Origin: Glandiceps talaboti
Taxonomy: Eukaryota > Hemichordata > Enteropneusta > Spengelidae
Direction: 5' to 3'
DNA: 64,000 bases
Assembly: GCF_964340395.1 (NCBI RefSeq)
Contig: NC_135568.1
Span: 15,834,276-15,898,275, forward strand
The notes beneath the pieces were generated by a model that saw only the letters and a list, made by a program, of their open reading frames with translations, had not been told where the DNA came from and did not search any database. Below are positions 600 through 62,597 of the stretch, in pieces. Numbering within the stretch: the first letter of the stretch is position 1; each line of letters begins with the position of its first letter. Position numbers and translations under genes: made by a program.

Positions 600-778
600 A
601 TTGAGAATCTTGGGGAACCTCGTGGTATTGCTGTGGATTGGATTGGTGATAACATATACTGGTGCGATTCAGAGTTTGATACGATAGAAGTAGCTGATAT
701 TGGAGGCAGATATAGGAAGACACTGATTAATACTGGTCTGGATTTACCACACTCTATTGTAGTCAACCCTGCTGAAGG
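600..778 (+). CDS. LRP1: LRP1-like exon 1 of window: YWTD propeller blade
   Basis: The acceptor is tttgcatag and the donor is GG|gtaagt. It starts in phase 0 and leaves two bases. The frame reads [19 protein letters not shown], then [14 protein letters not shown] and [12 protein letters not shown], an LDLR class B repeat. YWCD stands in the usual YWTD position. Confidence 0.92.
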
Positions 779-3700
779 GTAAGTGAGGTTAAAGGTCACA
801 CATCCTGGCATTTTAGGTGACCTTCACTATAGGCCTAAGATCTCATGATAATTAATATACAATTGTCTAGCAAATGAATACACCACCCTCTTGAGGATGA
901 TTTAACCTGAGGTTTTGACCAGTTGTTACATACATTTTATGAGAGAAAGGATTTTCAAACCATTTTGCTGCCTAATTGAAAATCTATGCTCTCGTGATTT
1001 GGTAGTGCCCTCTAATGATAGCCAAATTTTGTTGTTGTGGGTCATTATGGTAAAAACTAGCATGCCTAGTGAGTTGCCACATAGTAAGAGAAAGGGGAAC
1101 ACCACATTTTGGTGTGTCACTAGAAATAGTATAATTAACCAGCGTCCACTCAATAACTTGTATATCAACATATCACAACAATATAGTGTTAGTTTGCTAT
1201 CTCAGTAAGCCGATACCTCAATTGCCGTGGTTGTATTGTGATTTAATTGACATATGTTTATGTTTCAGTATGATGTATTGGACAGACTGGGGACAGAATC
1301 CTAAAATTGAATCTGCCTATTTAGACGGCTCAAGTCGCAGAACACTGGTCAGCACTCGTATAGAGTGGCCAACAGGATTGGCCATCGACTACATCATTCG
1401 GCGTTTGTTCTGGGCCGATGCAAAGTCTAGCGTTATCGAGAGCATTAATCTGGATGGTACAGACAGAGTGGTTGTAGCAAGGTTCGCTAGAAGTGAGTAA
1501 CTTACTGTGGATTTATTCTGAGCATGCAGTTTTGATGAGCCAGGCTATCAAGTTCTGAGAGACCTCAACTTGATAAACTCATCTTGTAATTGAAACTTCA
1601 TCCTCCTGGTAAAATCTCGGCATTTATAGATAAATGTAATGGAACCAAAAGAAAGTTAGCATGATCAGGATAGATATAGCCACCATAACAGGCTAGATGG
1701 TTATCCTGGCCAGAATTCTTTCCACACAGCATGTAAACTTGAAGTAATTTAGTTGAGAATAAAAAAAAAAAAAAAAAATTGTGTCAATTTTTTATTTTTG
1801 GCCTAACAAGAAATGTTATCTGTTTTACAGGTGGTAACCAGCCGTTCATGATTGATATTTTTGAAGATTTTATTTACGGAACAACTTACCAGACAAACAA
1901 TGTCTTCAGAGTCCCTAAGTATGGTGGAAATGTGACGGTACTAGCTTCTAATCTAGAACATGCCACAGACCTGGTGATAGTCCAGGAAAATAAACAAGAA
2001 CTAGGTAAGGACTAATTTCGACTAAGTTAAAGGGTCTTTGTGTCAGAAGATACAGGATTCAAAATATTTAGTAAGTTTAAAGGGAACACATTATTCTTGA
2101 AAATAAATGTGTAGCTGGTTCAGTGTGAGTAAGCCTGTCTACACCAGTCAGTCACCCATACTCATATACATAGACCTCTAGTGGGTTTAGTTTCATTCCT
2201 AGAGACGACATTGGAATAAATAGAAACTTGATTGTAAGAAGATTTTCTAAAATTTAAGAATATTACTTCATTGGGAAGTAATATTTCTTGAATTCTGATC
2301 TAAAATAAAGTTGATCTTTTTTCAAAAATTACAGAGAAACAAGAATTTTTGTTCAAAAATTTTGGCGGGAAAGTCACCCAGGCTCAGCAGTGATAGCATG
2401 TACCTCTGGGTTTAGTTTAAAACAGTCACTTCATATACAATCTATCCTGAAGTCACCTAGAACCAACATATATATATCACCAATGCTTTCAGTGTGACTC
2501 AGTCTGTCCACTGTTTATCTCAAGTTCACACAGAACCGGCAATGCATACCACCAGTGCATTGTTAGTGTGACACACTAGCCTGTCCACATTTATCCTGAA
2601 GTCACCCAGAACCAACAATAAACACATCATCAATGCGTTCAGTGTGGCATAGTCAATCCACAGTTTACCTCGAGGTTACCAACAACACATCACCAATGCA
2701 TTCAGTGTGACACAGTCAATCCACAGTTTACCTCGAGGTTACCAACAACACATCACCAATGCATTCAGTGTGACACAGTCAATCCACAGTTTACCTCGAG
2801 GTTACCAACAACACATCACCAATGCATTCAGTGTGACACAGTCAATCCACAGTTTACCTCGAGGTTACAACTCATCACCAATGCATTGAGTGACATAGTC
2901 AATTCACAGTTTACCTCGAGGTTACAACTCATCACCAATGCATTGAGTGACATAGTCGATCCACAGTTTACCTCAAGGTTACCAACAGAATACATACATG
3001 TAGCACCAATGTGTTCAGTGTGCAAAACAACATTGGTGATATTTTCTTTGTCTGTTAGTTTCAGGTGATAACAATCCATGTAATACAAATGATTGTAGTC
3101 ACCTGTGTCTACTCAAACCTGGTAACCAGGCCTCCTGTACATGTGCTAACACTCATATGAAGGATGAAGATGGATCATGTACACCTCAAAGTAAGTTACT
3201 TTGTTATTGTTCAAGGGGCACAAGCTGATACGTTTTTTGATTCAAGCTGATAAACACAATAAGAGAGTGTATCGGTAGTTACATTAGGCTCTCCTATCAG
3301 TCGCACTCTTGTATAGGGGACACATCAGCTTTGCTAGCCATTGGACGTTTTCACTTATGATACCATTAAATAAAAATGACAGCTAACAAAGAGTAATTGG
3401 AGGAAACCTCAACCAACTAATAGGTACACAAAAATACAAAGCTACCACAAGAGGGCTCCCTATAACTAGCTGGCAAGTGTCAATTAGGCAAGTTTCCAAC
3501 GTGTGGTATAAATTTAACATGATTTTACTGGTTGGATTTCTTGTTTAGGTGGATGTGAGAACAAACGGTGTAAGAATTCTGGGGTTTGTTATCTTGCTAA
3601 TGGAGAACCAAGATGTAGGTGAGTATGCAAGATATAACAAAGATTTTGAATAATTATGGAAAAATGGTAAATTAATGTTCACCAGACAAACTTAACAGCT

Positions 3701-4257
3701 ACTGCAACAATATTACTTATGACGCACATACTACAACAAGAGCTCACACCCATAGAGTGACTTAACACTGACAATGGTACACACATATACTGTGACCAAA
3801 CACTGTGACAGTGGCACACACATATACAGTGACCAAACACTGTGACAATGGTACACACATATACAGTGATCAAACACTGTGAACAAGGCACACACATATA
3901 CAGTGACCAAACACTGTGACAATGACACACACACACATACAGTGATCAAACACTGTGACAATGGTACACACGCATACAGTGACCAAATACTGTGACAATG
4001 ATACACACATACAGTGACCAAATACTGTGACAGTGGCACACACATATACAGTGACAAACACTGCATGTGACAATGGTACACACACAAAAAGTAACCAAAC
4101 ACTGTGACAATGGCACACACACACATACACTGACCAAACACTGTGACAATGGTACACAATCATACAATGTAGAAACATGTCAGCAAGGACCTGACGTGTA
4201 CAGTAGGCAAATAAACACTATGGCTCACTCACATACTAACACTGCCACAATAATTTA

Positions 4258-4292
<35 letters not shown>

Positions 4293-7200
4293 CCAAACAT
4301 GGCATGAAGGACTCGTTGACATATGATGACCAAACATCGCCACAATGAGTTACACACATACAATGACCAAACACAGAGAAATCATGCACATACTATGATA
4401 CAGTGACAAAACACTGTGGCAAGGGTTCAATTATAATGACGTTGTATACACTGTACTTTCCACATAACTTTAATCTTAATAGTTATAAGACGTACTTCCT
4501 CGCCAAAACTTGTAGATACTCAGATACAATGGATATATCCTTTAGCTCTCCAAACTGAATTTAGGTGAAAAACAAGCCTTCGATAGCTTTCACAGCTGTT
4601 GAAGGCTAACCTTAGCAGTCATTGAAGGTTCATAAGTAAGCAAGATACAAAGGCTAGCCCAAGCCTCCAATAGCTATCACAGCCATTGAATGGTAGATGC
4701 AACGGCACTTTCTAGATATTATGTTACAAGGTATAGTAAATATGTTTTCGTCTCTTTATTCACTACCAGATGTCCAGATCAATATTCTGGTGATCTTTGT
4801 CAGACTGACGTATGCTCCAATTTCTGTCTTAACGGTGGTACCTGTGTTGCCTCCCGTGGTCAACCAGCTTGTCAGTGCAACGAAAGATTTGAAGGCCCTC
4901 GCTGCAGAAGTGATAAGTGCTCAAATTTCTGTGCGCACAATGTAACATGTATCATCAAGAACGGAGTCCCAACATGCGAGTAAGTGTATAAACCTGAACT
5001 AGCGGTAACTGGAGTATTAATTTTTTTCAATCAGACCACCCTGAATATATTAACTGAAAATTGTTAAAATACCAATAATTAGATAGTTTGACAAAACATG
5101 TTGACCTGAACAGGCGAAATGTTACTTAGAAAGTAATTAGAAAGTTTGGTCACGGTACAAGTCATTCCAGCCTATTGTGGCTGTTTTAATAAACCGATGA
5201 ATAAATTTACATTAATTAGTAGCTGAGTAGAGGTTGATTTTATCTATATGAAAGTAGTATAAAAAATATGATATATGTTGAAATTGTGATTGCATGGAGG
5301 TTGTTGACCTTTGGGTGTGGACCTAAAAGTTAATGTGATCAGATTTATTGCACCGTAATATGTGTACAGCTACATAAATACATTTACCCACAGGTGATGT
5401 AATATTTTTCAGGGTGTACGATATTATGAATAAGTCAGTATATCTAACAAACCAGTTAAAAAACAAACAAAAAAAACATTTCAGTTACAGCTAGTACAGC
5501 TTTAACAACTTTGTTGTTGTGTTTGCTTCATATCAATAGGGAACTTGCAAACCTGCCATGTTGAATGTTGCATCATGGGAAATGTGATAATAAATGCTAA
5601 TCAATTAGTATTATGAACAAAAATGTTACACTGTTTGTAACCACAAATGATCAATTCATTCATAGTCACCCTGACCGTTGTGGGAGGTATATTTTATCAG
5701 TAGCTCCAGATTAGGTAATACGATAACCTCAGACAATCCCATAGTCCTTTGCGTCTGAGCATGCTCAGTCTGGATTGCAAGTTCCCTATTGTTTGTTAGC
5801 AAATTATAAGGACCACACACAACAAATGTTCCAGTCTACTTGTAATACCCATTGCAAGTATAGCGATTCCAACTATGTGCCATACACACTTATATCACAT
5901 CAAGTGTAAATTTATAGTTTTCAAGTTTTTTTACATAATTTTTTGTTGTTGTAATTTTTCGTCATCTCAGAAACCACTAGGCCAACAGATTCTTATGTCA
6001 TCCAATAACAGTTGACTGTATAACTCTGTTGGAAACAAGAAATTGCAAGAAATATACCCTAAGTACCCAACACCATATGCCAGCTATCAGAAAGACAAAA
6101 GGATTTTATAGTGTGGCCGCTAGGGGGATGAAAGGATTATATTGTGTTATCTCTACAGCCTAGGTGTAGTGGTAGCTATGACGACCCTCTCTCTCTGAAA
6201 CATCACAGTAAAGTTACAATTTGTGGTATTATCTGTACTTGCTACTCTAGATGTACTGGTAGTTATGCTGGGCCTCACTGCCTGGACAACCTGTGTGATA
6301 ATGCGTGTGAGAATGGTGGAGCCTGCAAAGTGCGCAGTTTAAGTGGTAATAAACAGGCAGAATGCGTCTGCGTTGGTGGCTACACTGGCAGTCGATGTGA
6401 GATTGATCGTTGTAGTGACTACTGCAAGAACGGTGGAAAGTGTGATATAAAGGGTAAGTACTTTGATTGTAATCTGTACATTAGTGGTTGTGGAGTCATG
6501 ATGGTTGAATTGTTAGAGTGGTTGGCTTGTAATCTGTACATTGCTGGTTGTGGAGTCATGATGGTTGAATGGTTAGAGTGGCTGGTTTATAATAATATAA
6601 TATAATGAACATTATTCATCCAAATAAATTCGGAAATTTGTTGAATGGTTGCCACAAGAGCAGCACCCTAGTGCCCTAGTGTTGAAGAAGCAGGGGGAAA
6701 CCAGAGTACCCGGGGAAAATCTGCATTGGTCAGCAGGGTCAAACTGAGCATCAACCGTCTTACATACAGACCTGGTTAAATGTTTAATCAAACCCAGCCG
6801 ACACCTGGCGGGTTCAAACCGAGGCTGCAGTGGTGAGAGGCATACAAGCTAACCCCTCGGCTACCAACAACATATGTAATCTGTACATTGCTGGTTTTGG
6901 AGTCATGATGGTTGAATGGTTAGAGTGGCAGACTTGTAATCTGTATATTGCTGTATGCAAATTTGTCTAGCAACAAGACCATGCCCATAGCAACAGGCAA
7001 ATGATTGCAAAGATAACAACATGGTTGAATAGGCAACGGGATAATCATTCAGCAATGTACACCTATACCAAGCATAGATCAGCATGTGAATAAACATTTT
7101 TCAAAACTGTACAGTTGTGCTACAATGCCATTGGGGCTATTTTTAAATACTTGAACTTGCTTGTCTGTATTATTTCAGTGTCTTTTTTAAGTTCTACTTG

Positions 7201-10200
7201 TTTTGTAATGCTGTTTTTGTGTGTATTTATGTCTGTTTTAGCTATGGGATGTTTTGAACATTGTTGTGTTCTTTCTTTCCCGAAATGAAGTTTAATAAAT
7301 TCATAAATAATAATAATAACTATAATTTCCTATTCTTTTGTAGATGGATCTCCGAAGTGCTCGTGTACACCAAGATATAACAGTTCACAGTGTGATACAG
7401 ATCTATGCATCGAAAGATGTAAAAATGGTGGAGAGTGTGTGGAAGATACACAGAATGCCACCCTTAGATGCATGTAAGTATAGCCCAGAGATAGTAAGGC
7501 TTGTAAGTATAGCCCAGAGACAGTAAGGCTTGTAAGTATAGCCCTGAGATAGTAAGGCTTGTAAGTATAGCCCAGAGACAGTAAGGCTTGTAAGTATAGC
7601 CCAGAGATAGAAAGGCTTGTAAGTATAGCCCAGAGATAGAAAGGCTTGTAAGTATAGCCCAGAGACAGTAAGGCTTGTAAGTATAGCCCAGAGACAGTAA
7701 GGCTTGTAAGTATAGCCCAGAGACAGTAAGGCTTGTAAGTATAGCCCAGAGACAGTAAGGATTGTAAGTATAGCCCAGAGACAGTAAGGCTTGTAAGTAT
7801 AGCCCAGATACAGTAAGACTTGTAAGTATAGCCCAGAGACAGTAAGGCTTGTAAGTATAGCCCAGAGACAGTAAGACTTGTAAGTATAGCCCAGAGACAG
7901 TAAGACTTGTAAGTATAGCCCAGATACAGTAAGGCTTGTAAGTATAGCCCAGATACAGTAAGGCTTGTAAGTATAGCCCAGAGACAGTAAGACTTGTGAG
8001 TATAGCCCAGAGACAGTAAGACTTGTAAGTATAGCCCAGAGACAGTAAGACTTGTAAGTATAGCCCAGAGACAGTAAGACTTGTAAGTATAGCCCAGAGA
8101 CAGTAAGACTTGTAAGTATAGCCCAGATATAGTAAGACTTGTAAGTATAGCCCAGAGACAGTAAGGCTTGTAAGTATAGCCCAGAGACAGTAAGGCTTGA
8201 AAGTATAGCCCAGAGACAGCTAGGCTTGTAAGTATAGCCCAGAGATAGTAAGGATTGTAAGTATAGCCCAGAGATAGTAAGGATTGTAAGTATAGCCCAG
8301 AGACAGATATATAAGCCAAAATATTCAATTTTCTGACCAATCATCACCTCTCAATATTCTGACCAATCATCGCCACTCAATATTCTGACCAATCATCACC
8401 TCTCAATATTCTGACCAATCATCACCACTCAATATTCTGACCAATCATCACCACTCAATATTCTGACCAATCATCACCACTCAATATTCTGACCAATCAT
8501 CACCACTCAATTTTCTGACCAATCATCACCACTCAATTTTCTGACCAATCATCACCACTCAATATTCTGACCAATCATCACCACTCAATATTCTGACCAA
8601 TCATCACCACTCAATATTCTGACCAATCATCACCACTCAATATTCTGACCAATCAACACCACTCAATATTCTGACCAATCATCACCTCACAATATTCTGA
8701 CCAATCATCGCCTCTCAATTTTCTCACAACTCATCAGTATTCTGACCATAGTTTGTTTTATTTTGTTCAGTTGCAATGGTAACTGGGGAGGCAATTTCTG
8801 TGAGCATGAGAAGGGTAGTGCCGAAGACTGCAAACACTTGGTGTGTGAACCTCATGGAGCATGTGTTCTAAGACTTGACCCATCCAGTAATGAGAAGAAA
8901 GCAATGTGCAGGTCAGTGGTAATTATGTAAATGACCAAAAATATTCATCAGCTTGGTAGATCAAGTGATTTGTAATTCTGCAATTATCAGTTACATCCAT
9001 TCTCAAAATTGTGTTTAATTTCAATAATTAAACATTTCTGGGTACGAGCCATAACATCAGCAAAGTCTGCGATACAGCTATAATGATGTACGCTTGGTGT
9101 TTCACTCATGAAATATTTTGTTTTTGACACACAGCTACACATATTTCAACTCTAGACTAACAATAACAGAGACACAGCAAACACAGTGGGATCCTTTACC
9201 CAATCACGTTGAACACTGCTGATAAATTTGCTATTCTTTCACACTGCAGTAAAAACAGGCTTCCAATGAAAACATTACAAGTGGACTTGATGATTTTATT
9301 GGCTACAAATGTTTATTTTCTAACTGATAATCAACATTTCAACTTGACTATTTCTACATCCCTACTGTGTATGGTACCTAATCGTTCCTTTTGCATTAGA
9401 AGTTGCCTGAGGGTGTGTAATAAATGTCATGTTACATGAGTGAAACACCAAACCAACATCATTTTAGCTGTAAGTACATGCTGTTTAATCAGTGTAAGTG
9501 ATAAAACACAATAGATGGCTGAAATCTGACCATGTATTTATACAAACCTTGAGTCCGAAATTCAACCAGTGAGTTAAAATTAACGTAAGCTGTGTTTAAA
9601 TTTCACATTCACTTTTACTCGACATGTGTTGTTTGTGGGGCATGTGGACAGTGTATGTGTCCATACATGTGTTTGCGTGCACTGTGTATGCATGTAACTT
9701 TGTATAATTTGCTAGGTCATATGCATATGCATTTTGATTGTATTTTAATTGTCTTATTAGTTGTAAGCCACACTGGGAAGGCCCCAACTGTGAGTATCCA
9801 TCCTGTCATGGTTTCTGCGCAAATGGTGGAACATGCAGCATAGTGGATGGCAAACAACAGTGCCAGTAAGTATGCATTCTCAATGTAGAAGATGCGTAGA
9901 AAGTATAACATTAGCATTCATCAATTCACTTCTTTGATAATAGTTGCATAATTTGCCATTATCAAATAGGAAACGGTTGTACTTCCAGTGGGATTTTTCC
10001 AGCCATTGATATTCTTGATGTCCATAAGGACCCATTCATACCACATACACGTAGTAATGTGTTTATTAACATTTAAAATATCATGAGTTTTATTGACTTG
10101 AGCAAGTCGAGACTTGAGAGAACATTTTATTAGCTGTTGGTCGGCTCAATATCCCAGGTAATATAGTCTTCATATTATCATCAGTCCGAATGTCCGAATG

Positions 10201-12289
10201 GAGAGCTTGTAGTTGGTTTATAAACACAGCATACGTGTCACATTCCATTTACTCTGCAAACTCTTACAAATCTAATGTTCCGATCACCACCGTGAATATT
10301 GCTTATTTGCCAAATCACATCATGAATTTAAAGGGGAACACTACTCCAGGAAATAGGGACATTTCCATAAACTTTGAGTTCTGGGGAGTCATTTCATGAT
10401 TTTACATCACCTACAATTACTTGCGATTTCAGTGAAACATCAAGTTGATCTTGTGCCTTTATAGGGTATCTTTGCTATGCGCTATTGCATCATGGGAGTC
10501 AACATAAATAATATATTCATGGTTGCACAATGAATATTCATGACTCCGGAGTGCTTATTCCTGTCATTGTAAAACAGCTTTCGTGATTTTTTTTTTTACT
10601 GAAAATGTCTTTACAAAAGCTTAGTATGCACATATCTCTGGTTACTGGCTAAGTGTTCATTGTGTACTGCCCACCATGTGACTTCAGCTTTATGCTTTTC
10701 AGGCATTGAATGAATATGAATTTTTCTTTGTTTAGATGTCCACCAGACTATGGGGGTGAATACTGCCAGGCCAAGAAAGCCCCTGAGGAGGCATGCAGGC
10801 ATTTAGAATGTATCCATGGTACCTGTGTGTACACAGATACTGATGATATCGTCATATGTCAGTAAGTAGTAACCATGGTGCCTGTGTGCACTCAGTGATG
10901 ATGTCATCATACTTTGTGTACACAAACACTGATGATGTCATATGTCAATAAGCAGCAACCATTGCCCTTATATTTACACAGATGCTGATGATGTCACCAT
11001 GCTTTAATTACACAGATTTTGAGGTCAGGCATCAACAAGCAGCATCCATTGTTTGTGTGTACACAGATACTAATGATGTCACATTGTGTGTACACAGTTA
11101 CTGATGATGTCACCATATTTTAATTACACAAATTTTGATGTCATACATAATAAATAGCACCCATTGCTCTTGAGTGTACAATGATACTGATAATGGAATT
11201 ATACTGTGTACACAGATACTGATGAGGTCATATTGCGTGTACACAGTTCCTAATGTTTTTGTCAAATGTCCGCATTCATGGCACAAGTGTGCACGTAGAT
11301 ACTGATGTCATCACACTGTGTGCACATGTACACAGATACTGATGATGTTATATTGTTTGTACACAGTTACTAATGATTTTGTCACATGTCCATAAGGAGC
11401 ATTCATGGCACAAGTGTGCACATAGATACCGATGTCATCATACTGTGTGTACATGTACACAGATACTGATGATGTCATCGAATGTCACCAAGTAGCAAGC
11501 ATGGTACTTGTATACAATTATGAATTGTACAAACACACTATTTTCTTTTTTAACTGATGAAAGTGAGAATTGAAAACATTTTTAAGATGTGATGGTTAGA
11601 AATACAAAAATAAAAAAAGAGTCCCAATGATTGATATCATAAGTGATATTAATACATGATTGTTAGCTAAAAAAGTATTTTAAAATGTTTGTATTTTTTG
11701 TCTTTTTAAGTTGTAAGACTGGATGGACTGGTGATAATTGTAATATTCCAAAACCAGGAACAACTGGGAAAAGAGCTGGTGATGAAAAAGACCATAGTAA
11801 GTCAGATTTGTTGGATACTAGTATATGTAGAGCACTGTCAGTTTATTAAAGATGAGACATGTTATGTCTATGCTAGGGAGTCTAGTGGCATTTCCCACAC
11901 TGGCCATTGGTGGCGCTCTACTACATAATTCCAACACTAGAACAGTTGGGTGACTTTAATCAGTACAGTTTTGTCTGAGACACTGCCACTCCATTTTCAG
12001 GTACACTTCTATCTACAGCCGCCAACACCTAAGGGGAGATACTGTAATGACACACGTCTGTCTGTCTGTCTGTCTGTCTGTCTACATACAGCTTTGTCTC
12101 TGACACTGCCAAAAGGGTTATTGTAATGACACACATCTGTCTGTCTGTCTGTCTGTCTGTCTGCATACAGCTTTGTCTCTGACACTGCCAAAAGGGTTAT
12201 TGTAATGACACACATCTGTCTGTCTGTCTGTCTGTCTACATACTGCTTTGTCTCTGACATTGCCAAGGGGGCTTTTGGAATGACATATA

Positions 12290-12333
<44 letters not shown>

Positions 12334-15300
12334 CATACTTCTTTGTCTCAGACTCACAAGTGATTGTGATGTGTTGTGTTATTTTCATCCTACAGCAACA
12401 ACTATGGTAGCAGTGCCTATAATAATGCTGATTATAATTATCGTAATAATTGGTCTTGTTTGGCTGTATAGAAAAAGAGCAAGGTAAGAATCATTACATA
12501 TTACTCATTCCCCAGTGATTTCCTTTCATCTTCATTCAGCTGGAAAATACAAGTGACCTGAGGGGCCTTGTCACTACGAGTTGAAGAGTATTTTCCAGCT
12601 GAATGAAGTAAAATAATAAGGAATGATGTTACTATAACTTGTGCAAACATAATTCATGATAAGAAAGTAAAATAAAAAGTGATTTAAACGTTTTGACTCG
12701 TACGAGTCGTAGTGTCACATTGAGGGCTATGCCAGTAAAACACCTTCTAAGGGAGTAATTAGTTTTGTAACTTTGTGAATTTTTACCCAGTTCAGTTCAG
12801 TTATGTTTTTATGTTTATTTATTAAAGTGTCATGTGTGGACTTACCCATAGCCACACCCAGCCCCTAGGGCTTACAAGACACTAAAGTAATACAAATCTT
12901 TAACTTATGAATAAGTTAGCGTAGATATTTAAACATTGTACATAAATTCCTTTCTCTTACAAAAAGCATCGCTAACAAAATTTGCTAGGTCAAATGGCAT
13001 GTTTGTCATTAAAAATTCTAGGATTCGACAACGTCTCTAGTGTCAAAGTGAGGAGATATTTCCCTAGCTTTTGAAAACAGAAACTCTCGAAATTCATGAT
13101 AAAGTCCACAGTGAAAAAGGAAATGTATCTCATCTTCAACTGCGTCTTTGCAGAAATCACAAAGTCTTTCCTCCCTGTCTAAATTAGAAAATCTACAAGT
13201 TTCAATTTTTAAAGGAAGAATACCTAGTCTGAGCTGAGCTAAAAGTGATCGCTTACCACGTGACAAATTATACGTTAAATGATTTTCCAGACCATAATGT
13301 TTTTTGAAAGTAACATATGTTTTTAACTTAGGCTTTTCTTTCACATTAATTTCCCAATTATTACCATGAAAGGTTTTCAGTTTTTCTGAAACAAACGAAA
13401 TATTACATGTCTCCATATTAGTATGACTCAAAATGGTTATGCAGTACGTACGACAGATTTTTTATGTTTATTTATAACGAATTTATTTTTAATTAGATGT
13501 ATGTAGACTCATCTATCAGTAATAAAGTTGAATTTTATAATTCTGGATAAAACTAAGGTACCTATTCATAGCTGTCAGAATCAACTGAGACCCTGGTGAC
13601 ATGATCATCTCATGATAGTCATATGATTATCCCATGGTGTAGTTAATTTCGTTTGAAGATTGTTGTTGTCCTGCCCCCCCCCCCCCCCCCCCCTCACTTT
13701 GCTGTGGAGTATTGGAGGTCCTGCTTGGTGAAAGGATGATTCATTATAATTTATACAAAGTCTCTGTCATTTTTCTTTTGCAGACAAAACAATGGTTTCC
13801 AACATAAAAGGATGAAAAACGGTGGTGGTACAAACGTAGAAATAGGAAACCCGACATTTTTATATGACCAACATGAAGACGACGATGGAGCACCCGATCT
13901 ACTAGAAACAGGATTTAATCTGGAACCTGATAAGGTAGAGTGAAATATTTTAGTTCTTATTTTATTCAATAACTGAAATTGGCAATATATAATGATGTGT
14001 GTTAGTGTTTGTATCAGTAAGGAGGGTGAATATATGCGTTGAACCTGACACAGACTCTTAATAGGCCAAGTATTGAAATTGAAAGTGGGACTTGTAAAAT
14101 GAAATACTTCTTGATAAGTGTATTTTTGGTTTTATGAATGTCTTTCTGTTGATCTGAATGTATATAATGGCTTTTTGCAGGCCATATATGAAGTGCCTAG
14201 AATACAGGCCATTTCTAGTAACAGACCATTACCACACTACAGACAATTTGTGGCATGCCTTGCTACAGACTAGTTGTGAAATGCCTTGTTACCATTTGTG
14301 AAATGGCTTGTTGCAGACTATTTGTAAAATGCCTTGCTACAGACATTGATGATATGCCTTGTTATCATTTGTGAAATGCCTTGCTTCAGACCACTGATGA
14401 GAAATGCCTTGGTACACAGACCATTTGTAAAATGCCTTGCCATGTACATGAATGAAATGCCTTGTTACCATTTGTGAAATGGGTGTTTACTTATTGTTTG
14501 CAAAATGCCTTGTTCCAGACATTTATGAAATGCTTTGTTACAGATAATTTGTAAAATGCCTTGATACAGAAATTTTATGAATTCCCTATATTATAGCCAC
14601 ATTGAGAAATATGTCATAGACCTAATGCCTTGCAACAGACCATTGATGAAAGGCCTTGTTATCAACCGCCATTCATGAGGATTGTGCATGAATACATTCA
14701 TCCACTGAATGCCACTTCACAGTTCTATGCATCATGGCATTCCTTTTCATCGTCTTTTTTTTCTTTGTCTCTCTCTCTCTCTCTTATGTCTGTTCAACCA
14801 CACAGCTGGATACAAATTTTTCCAACCCACTTTACGAAACTGTAGCTTACAATGAAAGCACACCCATGACAACAGCTCCAGGCCAGGTAGATGAACCACA
14901 ATACACTGAAACTACACCCATAGCAGCTGCAACATTAGAAGATGCCGACGGCAAAGACTCACAAGTTTAACATATAATCATTTCTGTAATTAACCCTTCA
15001 TTTTTAATCCCTATCATTTCAAGTTTCTGTAGGATGTCTGTGTTTGTTTATTATGTCTTGCCTCCTTCAAGTACTTGATAAGCACTTCGATGCCTGCCAT
15101 CTTCCGTGTTGTTTAGTGGTGCTGTCGTTATTCTTTCATCACAACTGCATGAAATGTTTTGATTGTGTCTATTGGGGGTTGGTAATGTCGGGGTGGTGGG
15201 TCGGGGGTTATTATGTGGGGGTTTGATAGGTGAGGTGTGATGGGGGTTTGATATGTTGGGATGATAAGTGAGGGTTTGATAAATTGAGGGTTGATTGCTG

Positions 15301-27735: not shown

Positions 27736-28018
27736 TATTAGGATTACAGGGTGATTATATTTGCATAACAAAGACACAACTTTCATCAACTTATTAGCCT
27801 GTGTAATCTATCACATCGGACAATTGTAGATTTTTAATAGTGTGTGTCTAACTTGGTACAAACTAAAAGCTTGGATTCCACGATACTTTTGTCCTTCAAC
27901 ACTCACAGTATTTTAATAGTACAACTTTTTTTCTGGTGTGTGTGTGTCAATCTGATTAAAATCTGATGTAGATAATCGTTCATTGTTATTTTACCTTCGT
28001 TATTTTAGGAAAATAGGG

Positions 28019-28603
28019 ATGTATCGTTGGATGTCGAACAAGGAACAGCAAAAGGCACTGGAAGAAATGGAGATGAAAAACCGAGATCTGGAAAAGAAGC
28101 TTGAGGAGAAAGAAGAGAAGGAAGAGATGAGAAAGAAGGAAGCGATGAAGGTAGGAGATCTGGAGAAGATTCAGAAGTGTGAAGATCGTATAAAGAAAAC
28201 AGTTGCAGCTTATCGGTGTAGTTACAGATTGATGGGACGAACAAATATAGGCTTGAACATAACAAAAGGGGTACTCGTAAGTACAGCTTTTGCTGCTGTC
28301 ATTCCAGCAGTTCCTATCGCTGTAGCAATTGTACCAATTGCAAGTGCTATTATTGAGATTATTCAGAATACCACAAGTCTGGCTAAGAAACGTGAGAAAT
28401 ACAAGTCTATATACAAACAATACCGTCAGTTGCTTACTTTAATACGATATCGTGGAGCCAGTGTGGATTTGACAAAATTATTGAAAGATGTGGCAGCCAA
28501 AGAATATGACATCATTGAACTGGACATTTACAGTCCTCCTCTTGACAGATACATGACAAAGTACAAACTTGATCCACTTGACAAGACATATTTGGAAACT
28601 TAA
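28019..28603 (+). CDS. Unrecognised protein A: charged N-terminus plus long hydrophobic segment
   Basis: The frame follows an acceptor-like tattttag and gives 194 residues from the ATG at 28019. A second ATG at 28031 fits the paralogue equally well. Residues 6-55 are rich in Glu and Lys (coiled-coil-like). CEDRI is at 54-58. Residues 81-116 are strongly hydrophobic (ITKGVLVSTAFAAVIPAVPI, then AVAIVPIASAIIEIIQ), long enough for a hairpin or one to two spans. A basic-aromatic region and DIYSPPLDRYMTKYKLD close the protein. I recognise no family. The paralogue at 62091-62597 shares the hydrophobic core and C-terminal box. ATTAAA lies about 90 bases after the stop. Confidence 0.7.
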   Translation: MYRWMSNKEQQKALEEMEMKNRDLEKKLEEKEEKEEMRKKEAMKVGDLEKIQKCEDRIKKTVAAYRCSYRLMGRTNIGLNITKGVLVSTAFAAVIPAVPIAVAIVPIASAIIEIIQNTTSLAKKREKYKSIYKQYRQLLTLIRYRGASVDLTKLLKDVAAKEYDIIELDIYSPPLDRYMTKYKLDPLDKTYLET

Positions 28604-37034: not shown

Positions 37035-39610
37035 TCTATAGGAGTGGTATTCTTATTTTGTTCCTATCTTTACACAGGGGGCAAAGGTGGTTATATGTGG
37101 ATGAACGTTCCAGTGGTAAATGTTTCAATTTTACCCCTATTGTTCACTATTGTGTCAGTAGTTCAAAGTCACAGCTGTATCGTTTCGGTAAATTTGGTCG
37201 TTTGTATAATTACCTTCCCATTCTAGTTCATCGGTACAAAACATGGTCCTCTGACTTCATCTTGCACCCAGTTCATATATTAGCGTTATGTACATGTGTA
37301 TACGTGTATGCCCCCATCTAGAAAGGGTGCTAAAGACACATATTTGTCTGTGTGGAAAATGGTCAACTTTTACCGTGAGGGGAGATGAGGGTAAAGTTTT
37401 ATGTCTTTCCTAAGTTTGTCACCACACACAATTATCTGATTGTTCCTATCTTTACACAGGGGGCAAAGGTGGTTATATGTGGATGAACGTTCCAGTGGTA
37501 AATGTACCATTTTTACCCTTATTGTTCACTATTGTGTCAGTAGTTCAAAGTCACAGCTGTATCGTTTCGGTAAATTTGGTCGTTTGTGTATTACCTTCCC
37601 ATTCTAGTTCATCGGTACAAAACATGGTCCTCTGACTTCATCTTGCACCCAGTTCATATATTAGCGTTATGTACATGTGTATACGTGTATGCCCCCATCT
37701 AGAAAGGGTGCTAAAGACACATATTTGTCTGTGTGGAAAATGGTCAACTTTTACCGTGAGGGGAGATGAGGGTAAAGTTTTATGTCTTTCCTAAGTTTGT
37801 CACCACACACAATTATCTGATTGTTCCTATCTTTACACAGGGGGCAAAGGTGGTTATATGTGGATGAACGTTCCAGTGGTAAATGTACCATTTTTGCCCT
37901 TATTGTTCACTATTGTGTCAGTAGTTCAAAGTCACAGCTGTATCGTTTCGGTATATTTGGTCGTCTGTGTATAGTCTTCCCATTCTAGTTCATCGGTACA
38001 AAACATGGTCCTCTGACTTCATCTTGCACCCAGTTCATATATTAGCGTTATGTACATGTGTATACGTGTATGCCCCCATCTAGAAAGGGTGCTAAAGACA
38101 CATATTTGTCTGTGTGGAAAACGGTCAACTTTTACCGTGAGGGGAGATGAGGGTAAAGTTTTATGTCTTTCCTAAGTTTGTCACCACACACAATTATCTG
38201 ATTGTTCCTATCTTTACACAGGGGGCAAAGGTGGTTATATGTGGATGAACGTTCCAGTGGTAAATGTACCATTTTTGCCCTTATTGTTCACTATTGTGTC
38301 AGTAGTTCAAAGTCACAGCTGTATCGTTTCGGTATATTTGGTCGTCTGTGTATAGTCTTCCCATTCTAGTTTATCGGTACAAAACATGGTCCTCTGACTT
38401 CATCTTGCACCCAGATCATACATTAGCGTTATGTACATGTGTATACATGTATGCCCCCATCTAGAAAGGGTGCTAAAGACACATATTTGTCTGTGTGGAA
38501 AACGGTCAACTTTTACCGTGAGGGGAGATGAGGGTAAAGTTCTATGTCTTTCCTAAGTTTGTCACCACACACAATTATCTGATTGTTCCTATCTTTACAC
38601 AGGGGGCAAAGGTGGTTATATGTGGATGAACGTTCCAGTGGTAAATGTACCATTTTTACCCTTATTGTTCACTATTGTGTCAGTAGTTCAAAGTCACAGC
38701 TGTATCGTTTCGGTAAATTTGGTCGTTTGTGTATTACCTTCCCATTCTAGTTCATCGGTACAAAACATGGTCCTCTGACTTCATCTTGCACCCAGTTCAT
38801 ATATTAGCGTTATGTACATGTGTATACGTGTATGCCCCCATCTAGAAAGGGTGCTAAAGACACATATTTGTCTGTGTGGAAAACGGTCAACTTTTACCGT
38901 GAGGGGAGATGACGGTAAAGTTCTATGTCTTCCCCAAGTTAGTAATACCATAAACAATTATCTGATTGTTCCTATCTTTACACAGGAGGCAAAGGTGGTT
39001 GTATGTGAATGTTCCAGTGGTGAATGTTACATTTTTATTTTACCCTTTCCTGTCGTTTCGGTCGTCTGTGTATTACCTTCCCATTCTAGTTCATTGGTAC
39101 AAAACGTGGTCCTCTGACTTCATCTTGCACCCAGTTCAATCATATTTCTTTTCATCTAGAAAGGGTGCTAAAGACACACGTGTGCGTGGAAAACGATCAA
39201 CTATTTTACTTGAGGGGCAATGAGGGTAAATCCCCTAGTCTTCCCTATATTAGTTATACCACAAACAATTATCTGATTGCCCCATTCTTTTCAGAGGCGG
39301 CAAAGGTGGATATATGAGGATAAAAATTCCGGTAGTAACCGTAATTTTTTACACTATTTGTTTACTATTATGTCAGTAGTTCAAAGTCACGCTTCGGGTT
39401 TTATTATTTATTTCGAGTTAACTGGTACAAAACATGAATGGTCTTCGATCTGGTACCCAATTCATCCTTTAGCGTTATGTACACGTGTATACTGATATGC
39501 TCCATCTAGAAATGAAGTGACAGGCGTACTTTGTTAGTCATACTATGAAGATATATCTGATAGTCCCTTTCTTTACACAATACTAGGCAAGGGTAGTTAT
39601 ATATGGATAA
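37035..39610 (+). repeat. ~381-bp tandem array, decaying to the right
   Basis: The marker GCAAAGGTGG occurs at 37081, 37463, 37844, 38225, 38606 and 38989 (spacing 381-383). Shorter diverged units begin at 39300 and 39587. The first five units are nearly identical, the later ones progressively altered and shortened. Each unit contains TTCCTATCTTTACACAG, a good splice-acceptor look-alike, directly before GGGGCAAAGGTGG. After it one frame starts GKGGYMWMNVPVVNV and another RGQRWLYVDERSSGKC. Confidence 0.93.
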
Positions 39611-46113: not shown

Positions 46114-47151
46114 TCAGTCCGATATTAATTTAGTCCATTCCTTGATTTTCTTCATGGCGTTCTTAGTTGCTTGTCTTACCGGACGTTGAGAGCGAGTTGT
46201 AGCGTCACACGTCTCGACTACTGATTCAGTCGATTCGGTTTCACTGGTATCGTCACTGTTAATCTCGAGAGGATACAGTTTAGTAACTGGGCGATTACTG
46301 TATCCATTTGCCGTCTTGATTTCGGCTGAACGAACTAGTCCATCGTTGCCAGGTTTGAGTTTTTGAACGACGGCGAGTTTCCAATGCGTACGTTTTTTCT
46401 GATCGTCGTGGACAAGTACGATATCTCCGACTTTGATTTCATTTTTAGTGGAGCCCTTTGTGACATTGAAATCCCGTTCTTTCAATGCAGTCAAATATTC
46501 CTCGATCCACCGGGTGTGGAAGTGTTGCAAGAGTTTTGCGAGACGATGCGATCTCTTTTCTAAGAGTGGTTGTGTCATATAATTTGGATCGCGTAGTTCG
46601 TTGATGTCAATTTCGTCATATGGTAGCGTTGTTATATTTCGACCTACTATAAGTTGCGGCTCATTGGAGTCACCGTAAACATAGGTTAGTGGTCGATCAT
46701 TTATGACGGCCTCTACTTCAGCGAGTAGCGTTCTGAGTTCATCTTCGTATACGTATGCACGTCGTAGTACCTTTTTCAGACAGAGTTTTGTGATGCCGAT
46801 TAATCGTTCCCAAAAGCCTCCGAACCAAGGGGCTCTCTTGGGTATAAAGTCCCACTGTACGAGGTGGTTCGCGAGAAACGCTTTCACCGATGGAGACTTC
46901 ATAAGTTCGTGAATTTCCTTCGCTGCAGCTTCGTATGTTGACGCGTTGTCACTCAGCATGCGATTCGGTAATGAACGTCGAGCTGCAAATCGACGAAATG
47001 CGCGAAGAAATGCACTTGTTGTCATGTTATCAACTAATTCTAAGTGTACGCCACGTGTTGTAGCACACGTAAATAAACAAACATACCGTTTGGCTTCCTT
47101 GCCAACTTCCAGTTTAACATACAGTTCGCCTGTAAAATCAACGCCTGTTAC
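46114..47151 (-). pseudogene. BEL/Pao integrase, C-terminal part
   Basis: The frame is open from the 9-bp target duplication at 47143-47151 down to 46114. It shows the first catalytic Asp in GVDF right after the insertion point. A CATTRGVHLE block follows, then the second Asp in LSDNAS and the Glu in GGFWERL of the DDE integrase core. The DUF5641-like C-terminal domain (VGDIVLVHDD, HWKLAVV) comes next. It is cut from its N-terminal part only by the 578-bp insertion. Confidence 0.9.
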
Positions 47152-47729
47152 ACGAGTATAAAGTTGGCGTCAGATTCAGATTCAGATTCAGCTAGCGTCA
47201 TATTGAGCGTCAGATTCAGCGTCAGATCCGAAGACACCCGACGGACTCAATCAAACACGAAATAATACTGTTGAGACTACAGGGAAAGATTCCGTTTCAC
47301 AGCCTTTTGATGGAAGTTGAAATGTCTGTGCTTGCACAATTTTTATTTGGGGAAAAATATGTGAAATAGAGTTGAAATACTTGCAACCGAGACATTGATA
47401 GCTCCAAGTTCAGCCAGTGTATGTTCGTTGGTTGATACTTTTTGCCAATAATGTACATGGTGTCAGTAAAAGCTAAGTTTACGTATGTAATATGTTGTCA
47501 TTTTAAAAAATTTGAATTTAAAATTTAAAAATTGTGCAAGCAGAGACATTCCATCTTCCATCAAAAGGTTGTGAAGTAGAATCTTTCCCTGTAGTCTCAA
47601 CGGTATTATGTCAGTTTTGATTGAGTCCGTCGGGTGTCTTCGGATCTGACGCTATCTGACGCTGAATCTGACGCTCAATATGACGCTAGCTGAATCTGAA
47701 TCTGAATCTGACGCCAATTTTATACTCGT
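47152..47729. mobile_element. Mutator-like MITE inside the BEL integrase
   Basis: Long inverted repeats of about 190-200 bp start ACGAGTATAAAGTTGGCGTC on the left and ACGAGTATAAAATTGGCGTC on the right (read inward). An exact 9-bp direct repeat GCCTGTTAC lies at 47143-47151 and 47730-47738. Long inverted arms with a 9-bp target duplication are characteristic of Mutator-like elements. The arms contain tandem GCGTCAGATTCA motifs. No transposase. Confidence 0.9.
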
Positions 47730-50402
47730 GCCTGTTACTGTGAATGCCGGACGATCAGTAACGCGTACGACTGGTAGCGGTGCCTTGATAGGTGCTTGAT
47801 ATGATAGTCCGATTACAAACTTACAAGTAACACATTCCCTGGTTACCGATTTCACGACAACGCGAATGCTGGGTATCCAATAGTACTGACGTATCGCTGT
47901 GACAGTACCTTGTAATCCAATGTGTTTTGAATGGCGATGATGATACTGAATGATGAGGCGTGTGAAGTGATGATACTTCGGTAGCAACGCAGGAAACTTC
48001 GCAGTTTCCGTGAGTGGTGCATTGTGGAGACGTCCTCCACAGCGAACAATGTTATCTGTATCTACGAACAGTTTCAATTGTTTCACAAGTTGTCCGTGTT
48101 TTCTCTCGTTTGATTTGAGTAGTTTGATTTCATCTCCATAACAGTCCGATTGAATGTTAGAAATCCAAAGTTTCTCTGCAGTCTTAATTTCTTGCGCGGT
48201 TAATTCTCCGGTTACTCGATTGTCTGAATTTCGCATATTTCCAATGAAGCGTAGAACTAATGCCGTTACTCTGCGGAGTCTAGTTATTGAACTAAATCGA
48301 TTGACGTCGATGATCACGTTAATTCCTGAAGTTCGCGTGATTGTATCAAGTTTAGCTGAGTTCACAACCATAGCAGTTTCATGTTGGTCTTGTATCGTAA
48401 TGTAATTGTCCCGATAAGTTTCGAATGTCAGTTCGTCCTTAATACTAGTCGGATTGTCCGTAATCCCGAGTGTTTCTAATGTCCAGAAACGCTGTAATGA
48501 TTGTTGTTCGTCCGATGAATCCAAAAGTAGAAATGTAGAGTCTGTTCTATGACCACGTACGCGTCCAGGTACTGGTCCCGAAAGTAGATAGCCTAACTTC
48601 GATGATACCGCTGTGGGTGGTCCCCGAATTACCTTGTCACCAACGAAATTCCAGTAAAAATCTACTCCGATGAGTATGTCAACTACGAATGAAGGGCAAT
48701 TCGATGGAGGATGAGCTAATTTCAGTCCGTGTAGATGAGACAGTTCACTCATCTTCTTTGTCATTTGATTTTGCAACGGTGCTGCGATCTTTGGTATGAT
48801 CAAAGTCTTTAGTCGAATAGTGTCTCCGTTTTCCGCGATGACATCGATGTCGGTGGTTTTGAAAGTGCGTGAACGAGGTGCCTTTTCGCCGAATACTGCT
48901 AAACTTAACGTCTCCGTAGACGTTGCGACAATGCCAAGTTTGTCAGCGAAATCTTGGGTAATAAACGATCGAGTAGCGCCTTCATCGAATAAAATTGTTG
49001 CCGCAGTCTGTCTGCGTTGATTTGATGAATGTAGAACTTGCGCGACTGCTGTCTTCAACACGACGGAACCGAACTGGAAATCGTTTCCAGTTTCTGCAAA
49101 TTGTACACAGTCAGTCGATTTCGTTTCAACAGGTGGTCCAGTACATATAGAAGTATGATGTTTCTTACCGCATTTTTTACAACGTGATTTAGATGTACAA
49201 ACTTTAACTGCGTGACGACCAAGGCAATTGTAGCATAACCTGTTTTGGACGACGATCTGTTTTCGCTTGTCGGGTTCCGTAATGACGTCACAGTAGTTGG
49301 CGTAATGGCCTCCATTGCAGAATGTGCATTTTGGTGATTTCGGTTTTTCACGAGCGGGTTCGCGGGGTTTCCTTCCATGCGTTAGAAATGCTGCCGTAGA
49401 TGTCATATCATTCGAATTATGTTTGTCCGTAGTATTGTATAGATCGGATTGTAAACCGTCTTCCAATGCTTCAACTTCCTTAAGTATGGAAGTTCGTAAG
49501 TCCGTTAAATTCCATTCGTCTTCGTGGTCGCGGGAAATCTGTGTTCGTGTTTCGCTAGGTAACTTTCTCATGACGATCGGCACTAATAAATCGCCGTACG
49601 AATCCTCGTTTTTGCCGAGTGCTTTGAGACCGCGCACGTGTGTCTCGAGCGTGTCGTAGAAGTCTCGCATGCTTGAGATTTCTCTTGTCGGCGCTTGTAA
49701 ATCCCACAGTGCTGCCATATGTGCGTATATGATTTTGTGTTTCTGACCGTATCGTTTGGTCAGAATGTCCACAGCGTTTTCGTAGTTGGCGTCCGTCATC
49801 GATAGTCCCTCGATCGCACGGAGCGCTTCTTCGCGTAACTGGCCTTTAAGATATTGAAACTTCTGTACCGGAGTCAGGTTTGGATCGTCCCCGACGGCCG
49901 ATCTAAACGAGTCGAAAAAGGTTGTCCATTTGAGAACATCGCCTTCGAAGGTGGGGAGTTGTAGCTTCGGTAGCTGCGTCGTTTTCCCCCTATGTTCTGT
50001 CGTCTGAGGAGCGGGTAAGGGTTTCGCGGTTGTAAACTTGTTCAAAAGTCTCTCCCGTTTCAAAATCTGCATTCTGCTTTCATGTAGATAATCGTCTGCT
50101 TCCACGATGAGGTCCATGAGTTCGTCTTGGGTTGCTGATCCAAGAATATCTTCGTCTAATCGCTGCATATAGTCAACTTTCATGTGTAGACTATTTATGA
50201 TCCCTTGTAGTTCTAACAGTTTGTCGTTTTTCGTATCTTCGGATTCGCTGGACTCGATGTCCACTACCGCTTTGTCTGCCATCGTGAGTAGCTTCAAAGT
50301 TTGTCCCCTGTGGGCGGCCCTGTATGTCTTCAACGATGCGGCGTTACCTCCAGATACGGGCTGGCCCTGACGTTCGAGTTGTGGTGGTGTGTCGTGATCC
50401 AT
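47730..50402 (-). pseudogene. BEL/Pao gag-like, zinc-knuckle, protease and integrase N-terminal frame lacking RT and RNase H
   Basis: One uninterrupted frame runs from the ATG at 50402. A DUF1759-like gag region (LPKLQLPTFEGDVLKWTTFF) lies near residues 144-163. Three CxxC...H...C knuckles lie at about 359-371, 390-402 and 408-420. The DUF1758 aspartic protease motif DEGATRSF is at about 473-480. From about residue 670 (near 48390) the text jumps to the segment just before the integrase zinc domain (SSITRLRRVTALVLRF, then HxxHSKHIG, CVTCK). The usual reverse transcriptase and RNase H are missing in frame. The open frame runs on into the Mutator-like element to 47652 and gains a SDSDSDSA-type end. 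Confidence 0.9.
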
Positions 50403-50420
50403 GCTTAAACCTATCAAATC

Positions 50421-50435
50421 CTGGTCTCGGCACCA
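50421..50435 (-). other. Primer-binding site of the BEL/Pao element
   Basis: On the minus strand TGGTGCCGAGACCAG lies about 20 bases inside the 5' LTR match. TGG plus a tRNA-acceptor-like complement is the usual primer-binding form. The exact tRNA is not assigned. Confidence 0.65.
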
Positions 50436-50453
50436 AATTATGTGGGGGTAGGT

Positions 50454-50668
50454 TCGTAAGAGAGTGAAGGACACACCAGACGTTATGTTAGGGTACTAGA
50501 AAGCTACTGAAGAACTTTATTCAATCATAAGTATATCAAGATTACATGATGCGTATCGATGTGTATCTACAGGAAATGATCACATACTTTGGGAATGGTA
50601 AATAGCAACATATGTTTGGGGAATTTATGATTAATGATCAATGTTAGCACAAGAGATTGTTCAAGACT
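50454..50668 (-). repeat. BEL/Pao 5' LTR
   Basis: Identical to 45450-45664. Toward the interior it continues AACCTACCCCCACATAAT before the primer-binding site, so the LTR end could be at CCCCCACA. Confidence 0.9.
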
Positions 50669-61494: not shown

Positions 61495-62080
61495 CTGTGC
61501 GCGCGCGTATGTGTATGTGTTTGTGTGTCCATCCGTCCGTCCGTCCATCTGCATGATCTGTGTAAATGTGCATTAACGTTGTGTAAAGTTTTGCAGAAAA
61601 GATGATAGGTATAGTACAACTCAGAGACTTGGCCTGCTGACTCGACATTGTCAAGCCAGGTAGAGAAGTCTATAGGCTGGAAGTTAGAGAGATGGTTAGT
61701 TAGTGTCTAGTTAGTAGTTAGTGTCCAGTTAGCTAGTTAGTTAACTAGTTAGTTTGCTAGTTAGTTAGCTAGCTAGTTTGCTAGTTCTTAAACAATAAAT
61801 TAGACTACGAGTCACTGCAATTGGTTTGGATCAGATCTCCTTATACTGATATATATATATATATATATATACCTATGAAGGATAAAAATAATAGCTCTGG
61901 GTTCATTTCATTCTACATGAAATGGGTACATTATAAATATTTTGTACGTTATAATTCTCAATTGATTTTTATGGAAGCATTTCCCAGTATTAGTTACGTT
62001 TTTCTTTCAAGTTTGAGATTTCACACAAGTTGTTGTCAGTCGTTTAATGTCATTTCTTATATTCAACTCCTACACAAAAG
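61327..62080 (+). other. Extra sequence upstream of protein B
   Basis: Absent from block 2 copy 1, where the same flanks are nearly adjacent. It contains (GT)n at 61461-61495, TCCGTCCGTCCG at 61532, an AGTTAGCT/GTTAGTT tract at 61680-61785 and (AT)n at 61849-61871. It is either an insertion here or a deletion in copy 1 that left TATTTTAG directly before GAAAATAGGGATG. Confidence 0.7.
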
Positions 62081-62090
62081 GAAAATAGGG

Positions 62091-62597
62091 ATGCCATCGA
62101 ACGAGGAAAAGCAAAAGGCACAGGAAGAAATGGAGATAGAAGAGAATGAAGAGATGAAAGAGCGAGATCTGATTCGGAAGTGTGAAGATCGCATATGTAA
62201 AACAGTTGCAGCCTATCGGAGTAGTTACAGACTGATGGGACGAACAAATACAGGCTTCAACATAGCAAAAGGGGTATTCGTAAGCACGGCTTTCGCTGCT
62301 GTCATTCCAGCAGTTCCTGTCGCTGTTGCACTCGTACCAATTGCAAGTGCTATTATTGAGATTATTCAGAATGCCACAAGTCTGGCTAAGAAACGTGACA
62401 CATACAAGACTTTATACAAACAATACTATAACTTGCTTGTTTTAATACGATGTCGTGGAGCCGGTGTGGATATGACAAAATTATTGAAATATGTGGAAGC
62501 CAAAGTAAATGAAATCATTGAACAGGACATTTACAGTCCTCCTCTTGACAGATACATGACAAAGTACAAACTTGACAAGAGAGATTTGGAAACTTAA
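62091..62597 (+). CDS. Unrecognised protein B: paralogue of protein A
   Basis: From the ATG at 62091 the frame gives 168 residues. An open frame extends upstream through an (AT)n tract, but this part has no match to protein A and is probably non-coding. CEDRI, the hydrophobic core (STAFAAVIPAVPVAVALVPI, then ASAIIEIIQN), SLAKKR and DIYSPPLDRYMTKYKLD are shared with protein A. The charged N-terminus is about 20 residues shorter. Replacements concentrate between the core and the C-terminal box (for example YRQLLTLIRYR against YYNLLVLIRCR). The acceptor-like text before it is CTACACAAAAG. Function unknown. Confidence 0.68.
   Translation: MPSNEEKQKAQEEMEIEENEEMKERDLIRKCEDRICKTVAAYRSSYRLMGRTNTGFNIAKGVFVSTAFAAVIPAVPVAVALVPIASAIIEIIQNATSLAKKRDTYKTLYKQYYNLLVLIRCRGAGVDMTKLLKYVEAKVNEIIEQDIYSPPLDRYMTKYKLDKRDLET

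Follow-up and report, generated by a model that had tools for sequence, protein, structure and literature searches.

In amphioxus, the "mirages" of the globin, Adh, TnC and PGBD5 genes are minisatellite-like tandem duplications of exon-intron boundaries that reportedly leave splicing undisturbed; the first repeat in PGBD5 adjoins a 5′ splice site, and the units of Adh3 are 10-72 bp long (PMC3087553, PMC3902484). The VNTR in intron 18 of human ABCA7 is built of a C-rich, 25-bp unit present in about 12 to 427 copies, and the array opens with the GT donor of exon 18 as its first two bases. It is polymorphic and tied to disease risk; a transcript retaining one unit is seen independently of array length, and long alleles raise the skipping of exon 19 (PMC5954066). 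Tandem duplication across an exon-intron boundary, which supplies the splice signals, has also been described as a way of gaining introns (PMC4974935). Among the matches listed in the open literature we found no report of donor arrays in hemichordates or of such arrays as a genome-wide class.

The array in intron 8 of a receptor gene of the acorn worm Glandiceps talaboti probably belongs to this known kind and is probably neutral. Its layout is that of ABCA7 intron 18, with the first GT of the array (7474) serving as the donor of the exon. Intron 8, known from DNA sequence alone, differs in having a second array on the acceptor side, of which the passages of PMC5954066 on the human repeat make no mention for ABCA7; and whereas the ABCA7 array is described as C-rich, polymorphic and disease-linked, the one in intron 8 is known from one assembly. 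As in the mirages, the repeat unit spans the exon-intron boundary, the authentic donor is intact, the frame is open across the intron 8 junction and the EGF cysteines are preserved. Mirages of the amphioxus globin genes duplicate parts of exons, whereas the unit of intron 8 holds one exon base only. Mirages in general are described gene by gene in lancelets, and the host here is an acorn worm. In PMC4974935 a new intron is created, whereas here an existing one was lengthened.

The host gene was modelled as 15 exons from 600 to 14970 of the window (the whole 64,000-nucleotide stretch analysed); its 5′ part lies before the window, and the joined translation of the 15 exons is open to the stop at 14970. 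The protein matched LRP2 structures (best E-value 1.1e-252) and the Pfam models Ldl_recept_b, EGF and EGF_2 above cut-off, and inspection of the translation by eye revealed at its end a transmembrane segment together with NPTFLY and NPLY, two NPxY motifs. From its YWTD repeats, EGF modules, transmembrane helix and NPxY motifs the gene is predicted to encode an LRP1/LRP2-like receptor, an assignment that we keep at this level without choosing between LRP1 and LRP2. The features of intron 8 and its flanks are:

7344-7473, plus strand: coding exon, eighth of the 15 modelled, with one EGF module and ending in AT, codon positions 1-2 (open frame, splice sites, EGF cysteines and LRP2 match)
7473-8306, plus strand: donor array, 28.8 copies of TGTAAGTATAGCCCAGAGACAGTAAGGCT, with GTAAGT kept in 27 of 29 units
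7474-7479, plus strand: authentic splice donor GTAAGT, preceded by CAT and followed by AT
8325-8736, plus strand: second array, 15.8 copies of the 26-bp unit TCAATATTCTGACCAATCATCACCAC (TRF), with 15 YNCTRAY motifs and free of AG
8734-8748, plus strand: last partial copy of the 26-bp unit, TCAGTATTCTGACCA, overlapping the end of the TRF array by 3 bases
8749-8770, plus strand: pyrimidine-rich tract and acceptor CAG, the latter at 8768-8770 (sequence and exon model)
8771-8911, plus strand: following coding exon, an EGF module (exon model)

The first-pass annotation had described an array of about 29 copies beginning exactly at the donor of exon 8, with GTAAGT in nearly all units, and our analysis bears out both statements. 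TRF reported an indel-free 29-bp tandem repeat (7473-8306, 95% matches); its start is the final base of the coding exon, and the donor at 7474 is the first GTAAGT of the array. The hexamer is lost only in unit 19 (GTGAGT, 7995) and unit 26 (GAAAGT, 8198). The exon contributes a single base, the T at 7473, to the repeat, and the 8 bases 5′ of it match the unit end at 3 of 8 places by our sequence comparison, which is near chance. The authentic donor agrees with CAGGTAAGTAT at 10 of 11 places and has the top score among the 14 modelled donors of the gene; agreement is 9/11 in 23 of the remaining 28 copies and 8/11 in the other 5. The intron does open, as had been proposed, with dozens of strong decoy U1 sites of near-perfect U1 complementarity. 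A search of the genome (590 Mb, 47 contigs) with three consensus units gave 13 matches, all at the intron 8 locus. When the 8 merged arrays of the gene were placed at random in its 14 introns, 3.4% of the trials had an array start no more than 1 nt away from a donor.

Six EGF exons of the gene (ends 3618, 4979, 7473, 8911, 9865 and 10861) end in the same phase 2 at the same module position, between the cysteines of CxC, and the donor is therefore older than the array. The array is thus the younger of the two, and the donor lies within its unit; the earlier claim that the splice site was part of the amplified unit stands as a statement of origin.

The first-pass annotation had missed that intron 8 also contains another array, one with a branch-point-like motif, which extends as far as the acceptor region. 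Its 26-bp unit carries TTCTGAC, and in 412 nt there are 15 YNCTRAY matches and not a single AG dinucleotide. In the last partial copy, position 8745 is the candidate branch-point A, at a distance of 25 nt from the intron end. Together the two arrays and the partial copy make up 833 + 424 = 1257 of the 1297 nt of intron 8 (97%), and this is the only one of the 14 introns with a YNCTRAY within its last 60 nt.

The gene holds another boundary duplication, likewise absent from the earlier annotation, in intron 11:

10912-10959, plus strand: copy of the 3′ end of exon 10736-10861 and of the adjoining donor, which has decayed to ATAAGC (score 57 vs. a shuffle maximum of 28 in 200 shuffles)

The copy measures 48 nt and starts 50 nt into the intron, and repeats related to it continue to 11478 (TRF rows 10975-11478). 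We read it as a duplication across a donor in the host gene. When self-similarity was scored at the donor and acceptor of all 14 introns, only the intron 11 donor beat all 200 shuffles; the scores of the intron 8 donor (queried with only 12 intron bases) and of the intron 6 acceptor were each reached by 1 of 200. The boundary duplication is less plain in intron 8 than in intron 11 because the repeat has one exon base. In intron 6 (6144-6285), sequence in front of the acceptor is similar to the start of the exon that follows (6251-6453), a possible acceptor-side duplication, and in intron 7 (6454-6593) a 60-bp repeat starts 13 nt after the donor, with another copy near 6871.

Elsewhere in the window, a BEL/Pao-like LTR retroelement with DUF1759, DUF1758, integrase zinc-binding and DUF5641 domains lies on the minus strand at 46114-50474, and a 381-bp unit is repeated 5.2 times at 37058-39037 (97% matches), most copies having CTTTACACAG then GGGGGC. 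Two related open frames with a hydrophobic middle, at 27983-28603 (206 aa) and 61821-62597 (258 aa), gave no match in Pfam; short arrays that resemble each other (25076 and 25838; 58672 and 59140) precede both by about 3 kb, perhaps as a duplicated segment. The mitochondrial contig of the assembly (C40; 51,222 bp) has COX1 at 12741, 28176 and 43611 and consists of 15,435-bp units in tandem. Its COX1 reads TGA as Trp, encodes lysine by AAG only, with zero AAA codons in the stretch, and is identical at 376 of 455 residues to COX1 of PDB 7o37, which we take to be from a mammal. The gene order is trnN-trnW-trnA-trnY-COX1-trnS, then COX2 (the last by eye), and the tRNA with anticodon tca, labelled SeC by ARAGORN, is read here as Trp. 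At least 20 contigs of the assembly are longer than 20 Mb. Taken together, such traits would suit a hemichordate better than a lancelet.

The donor-anchored array of intron 8 is not unique in kind within the genome, a recurrence that the first-pass annotation had not recorded. Triple GTAAGT arrays gave 31,143 overlapping matches vs. 39,268 for the reversed control; the hexamer alone is therefore not enriched in arrays, and GTAAGT arrays were rejected as a special class. Among the 100 GTAAGT matches listed there were, besides a GTAA microsatellite, at least 11 distinct arrays (two clusters near 460 kb being merged into one), and 1 of the 11 (L037) starts at a coding donor, its exon being an LRRK2-like ARM match of 24.3 bits against a cut-off of 26.2. 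Arrays of the extended motifs were commoner than their reversed controls for AGGTAAGT (2204 vs. 839), CAGGTAAGT (466 vs. 165) and AAGGTAAGA (536 vs. 156), with hardly any excess for AAGGTGAGT (341 vs. 314). The matches listed for these four motifs (100 places each) contained at least 26 distinct arrays, including two (L033, L035) that were also in the GTAAGT set. The start was beyond reach in three arrays (L044, L049, L062), and among the 23 evaluable ones from the matches listed, reading of the flanks placed the start at a coding-exon donor in 18 (L040-L043, L045-L048, L050-L052, L054-L056 and L058-L061, with L042 being placed by our own reading only). Four arrays were not at a donor (L033, L035, L039, L053). 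By eye, the array of L057 (C4:2838440-2838860) seems to abut the acceptor of a minus-strand coding exon. At a rough extrapolation from 9 arrays per 100 matches listed, there would be 40-50 arrays per word for CAGGTAAGT and AAGGTAAGA, and the genome total of donor arrays may run into the hundreds.

The exons in front of these arrays are diverse in their matches: MetAP2 for L051 (E-value 1e-13), EED for L058 (7e-18) and CMTR1 for L052 (7e-6). A Pfam search with ten exon peptides, among which that of L050 was out of frame, gave a match for four; the PLAT domain of L059 (1e-13) exceeded the cut-off, and the matches to homogentisate dioxygenase (L048), INTS1 (L061) and, weakly, a DEAD helicase (L043) stayed below the curated cut-offs. 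Other array exons are presumably VPS13-, TRP- and spectrin-like, names suggested by their motifs. At L048 (C4:3733450-3733880) acceptor-region repeats are seen by eye upstream of the exon and a donor array downstream, as if both junctions had been amplified. Retention of a single unit would keep the frame (multiple of 3) at 6 of 20 loci and be stop-free as well at 4 of 20, according to a rough script in which the unit was doubled or wrong for up to four loci (L037, L042, L054, L060). Units that would be harmless, being a multiple of 3 in length and free of stops, were not favoured among the 20 loci. The first donor was better than the next copy at 6 of them, equal at 13 and worse at 1. In 19 random 10-kb stretches the flanks of six arrays were read, and one array (L013) was near a coding-looking donor. 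This 29-bp array (L013:7425-7521) starts 9-10 nt after the donor and does not include it.

We consider it highly probable that the intron 8 array is a donor-anchored minisatellite, formed by tandem duplication from the last exon base and then grown and homogenised, in which the first donor is used and the others are passengers, mostly neutral. Tandem copying of a short stretch with the last exon base and the splice donor, through replication slippage or unequal exchange, would have come first, followed by expansion and homogenisation of the array. The exon-proximal donor, which is presumably under selection, slightly stronger and adjoins the exon, would have stayed in use, perhaps as the only one, and the other 28 copies would be intronic passengers that are likely to be neutral. 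Splicing at any later copy reads AT/G TAA, with an in-frame stop as the second codon. The first-pass annotation had expected most products of the inner donors to be out of frame; in fact all inner donors bring the in-frame TAA. Owing to this immediate stop and to the further introns downstream, decoy products would be expected to undergo nonsense-mediated decay, and any leak would be a small cost rather than a product.

The annotation had left two accounts of the retained hexamers, recent homogenisation and functional redundancy, to a comparison of variation inside and outside GTAAGT. For this we counted the 28 full units, with 168 cells in the hexamer and 644 in the other columns. Variable columns were alike (2/6 in GTAAGT vs. 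7/23 elsewhere, p 1.0), and 13 of the 29 circular six-column windows, GTAAGT's own counted, are as invariant as GTAAGT or more. The longest invariant run of the unit is AGTATAGCCC, and columns 8-14 (ATAGCCC), which adjoin the hexamer and are not core donor sequence, show zero variation. Similarity of units is 0.955 at lag 1 and 0.926-0.933 at lags 10-20; units resemble their neighbours more than they do distant units, the pattern that slippage with local homogenisation should produce. Column and window variation therefore fits homogenisation without selection on the decoys. Deviating cells were fewer in the hexamer (2/168 vs. 28/644, p 0.064), which leaves room for weak selection on GTAAGT. 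We thus see no clear sign of selection keeping the decoys, though weak selection is possible; homogenisation fits the similarity by distance, and functional redundancy is not supported by the column counts or by the immediate stop. RNA folding of four stretches gave no special structure relative to shuffles (z 1.14, 0.85, 1.45 and -0.18), and a GGCT-TGTAAGTAT-AGCC hairpin hiding the decoys was rejected, as these stretches fold no better than shuffles. That selection maintains the array, with many U1 sites raising exon definition or shielding the transcript from early polyadenylation and the copies acting as back-up, would agree with the 27 of 29 intact hexamers, their low cell count and the rank of the array donor as the strongest of 14. 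Given the invariance of ATAGCCC and of the other windows, the stop that every inner copy yields and the unremarkable folding, we regard it as very improbable. Growth of the intron may instead have amplified both donor and branch point and made both splice signals redundant, a reading that draws on the 1257 of 1297 nt taken up by the arrays, the 15 motifs of the second one, the motif of the partial copy at 25 nt from the intron end and the uniqueness of this placement among 14 introns. Yet the donor coincidence and that of the second array arose together in 1.3% of random placements, in a test chosen after the sequence had been seen; with YNCTRAY at 2.5 per kb in the other introns of the gene, a 26-nt unit would hold one by chance in about 6% of cases; and genome-wide, branch-point-like TTTCTGAC arrays showed no excess (194 matches vs. 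541 for the control). We regard double amplification of the donor and branch-point sides as suggestive only, and redundancy of both signals as quite improbable.

A donor-anchored minisatellite that is merely tolerated also has to be set against targeting, in which minisatellites would arise preferentially at donors or junctions by some process linked to transcription or splicing. Single words differed little from their reversed controls in frequency, at 1.28x for CAGGTAAGT (7510 vs. 5869) and 0.88x for AAGGTAAGA (8798 vs. 10051), and per occurrence triple arrays were 2.2x and 3.9x commoner than the reversed controls, respectively, in counts dominated by few large arrays. As a yardstick we took isolated sites, 20 of CAGGTAAGT and 20 of AAGGTAAGA (those listed first outside clusters), and used their upstream flanks; one of these sites (604575) turned out to lie inside another array, that of L031. 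Flanks were given an automatic coding-exon score from a synonymous-codon table trained on the host gene and general amino-acid frequencies, with a threshold of 3.0, below which 95% of 1126 intronic GT sites fall. This threshold was exceeded by 13 of the 14 host-gene donors, 13 of the 23 extended-motif arrays and 13 of the 40 isolated words. The difference between arrays and isolated words favours targeting when only the two matched words are compared (10/15 vs. 13/40, p 0.03), but for all 23 arrays it amounts to p 0.07, and L040 and L047, both at 3.1, pass narrowly. Neither GTAAGT-only arrays nor those of AAGGTGAGT support targeting by their numbers, and branch-point-like arrays are rarer than their control. 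Such arrays stem in large part from donors, and any extra enrichment is modest at most; targeting appears unlikely to us. An assembly artefact that collapsed or inflated the array deserves mention since the copy number of 29-bp arrays is prone to misassembly; it is exceedingly improbable, as the units differ among themselves in runs along the array and at least 26 unlike extended-motif arrays are present, among the matches listed, in a chromosome-scale assembly.

Beyond the donor-anchored minisatellite of intron 8 itself, the more interesting part is its recurrence across the genome, which is only partly quantified. Exons with dozens of near-perfect decoy donors behind them offer natural tests of spliceosome choice between near-equal 5′ splice sites, and the expectation is that the nearest, slightly better donor should win. 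Their recurrence in one genome suggests that boundary duplications are not confined to lancelets, and it provides ready-made test cases; donor arrays also offer a simple route for the lengthening of introns. A broader proposal, which we put forward tentatively and hold to be rather doubtful, is that donors in the acorn worm genome are favoured birthplaces of minisatellites, with hundreds of introns starting in arrayed copies of their own donor (in some cases together with the exon tail), some acceptors amplified and some introns, such as intron 8, amplified at both ends. If this is true, exon junctions would keep feeding intron growth and supplying decoy splice sites.
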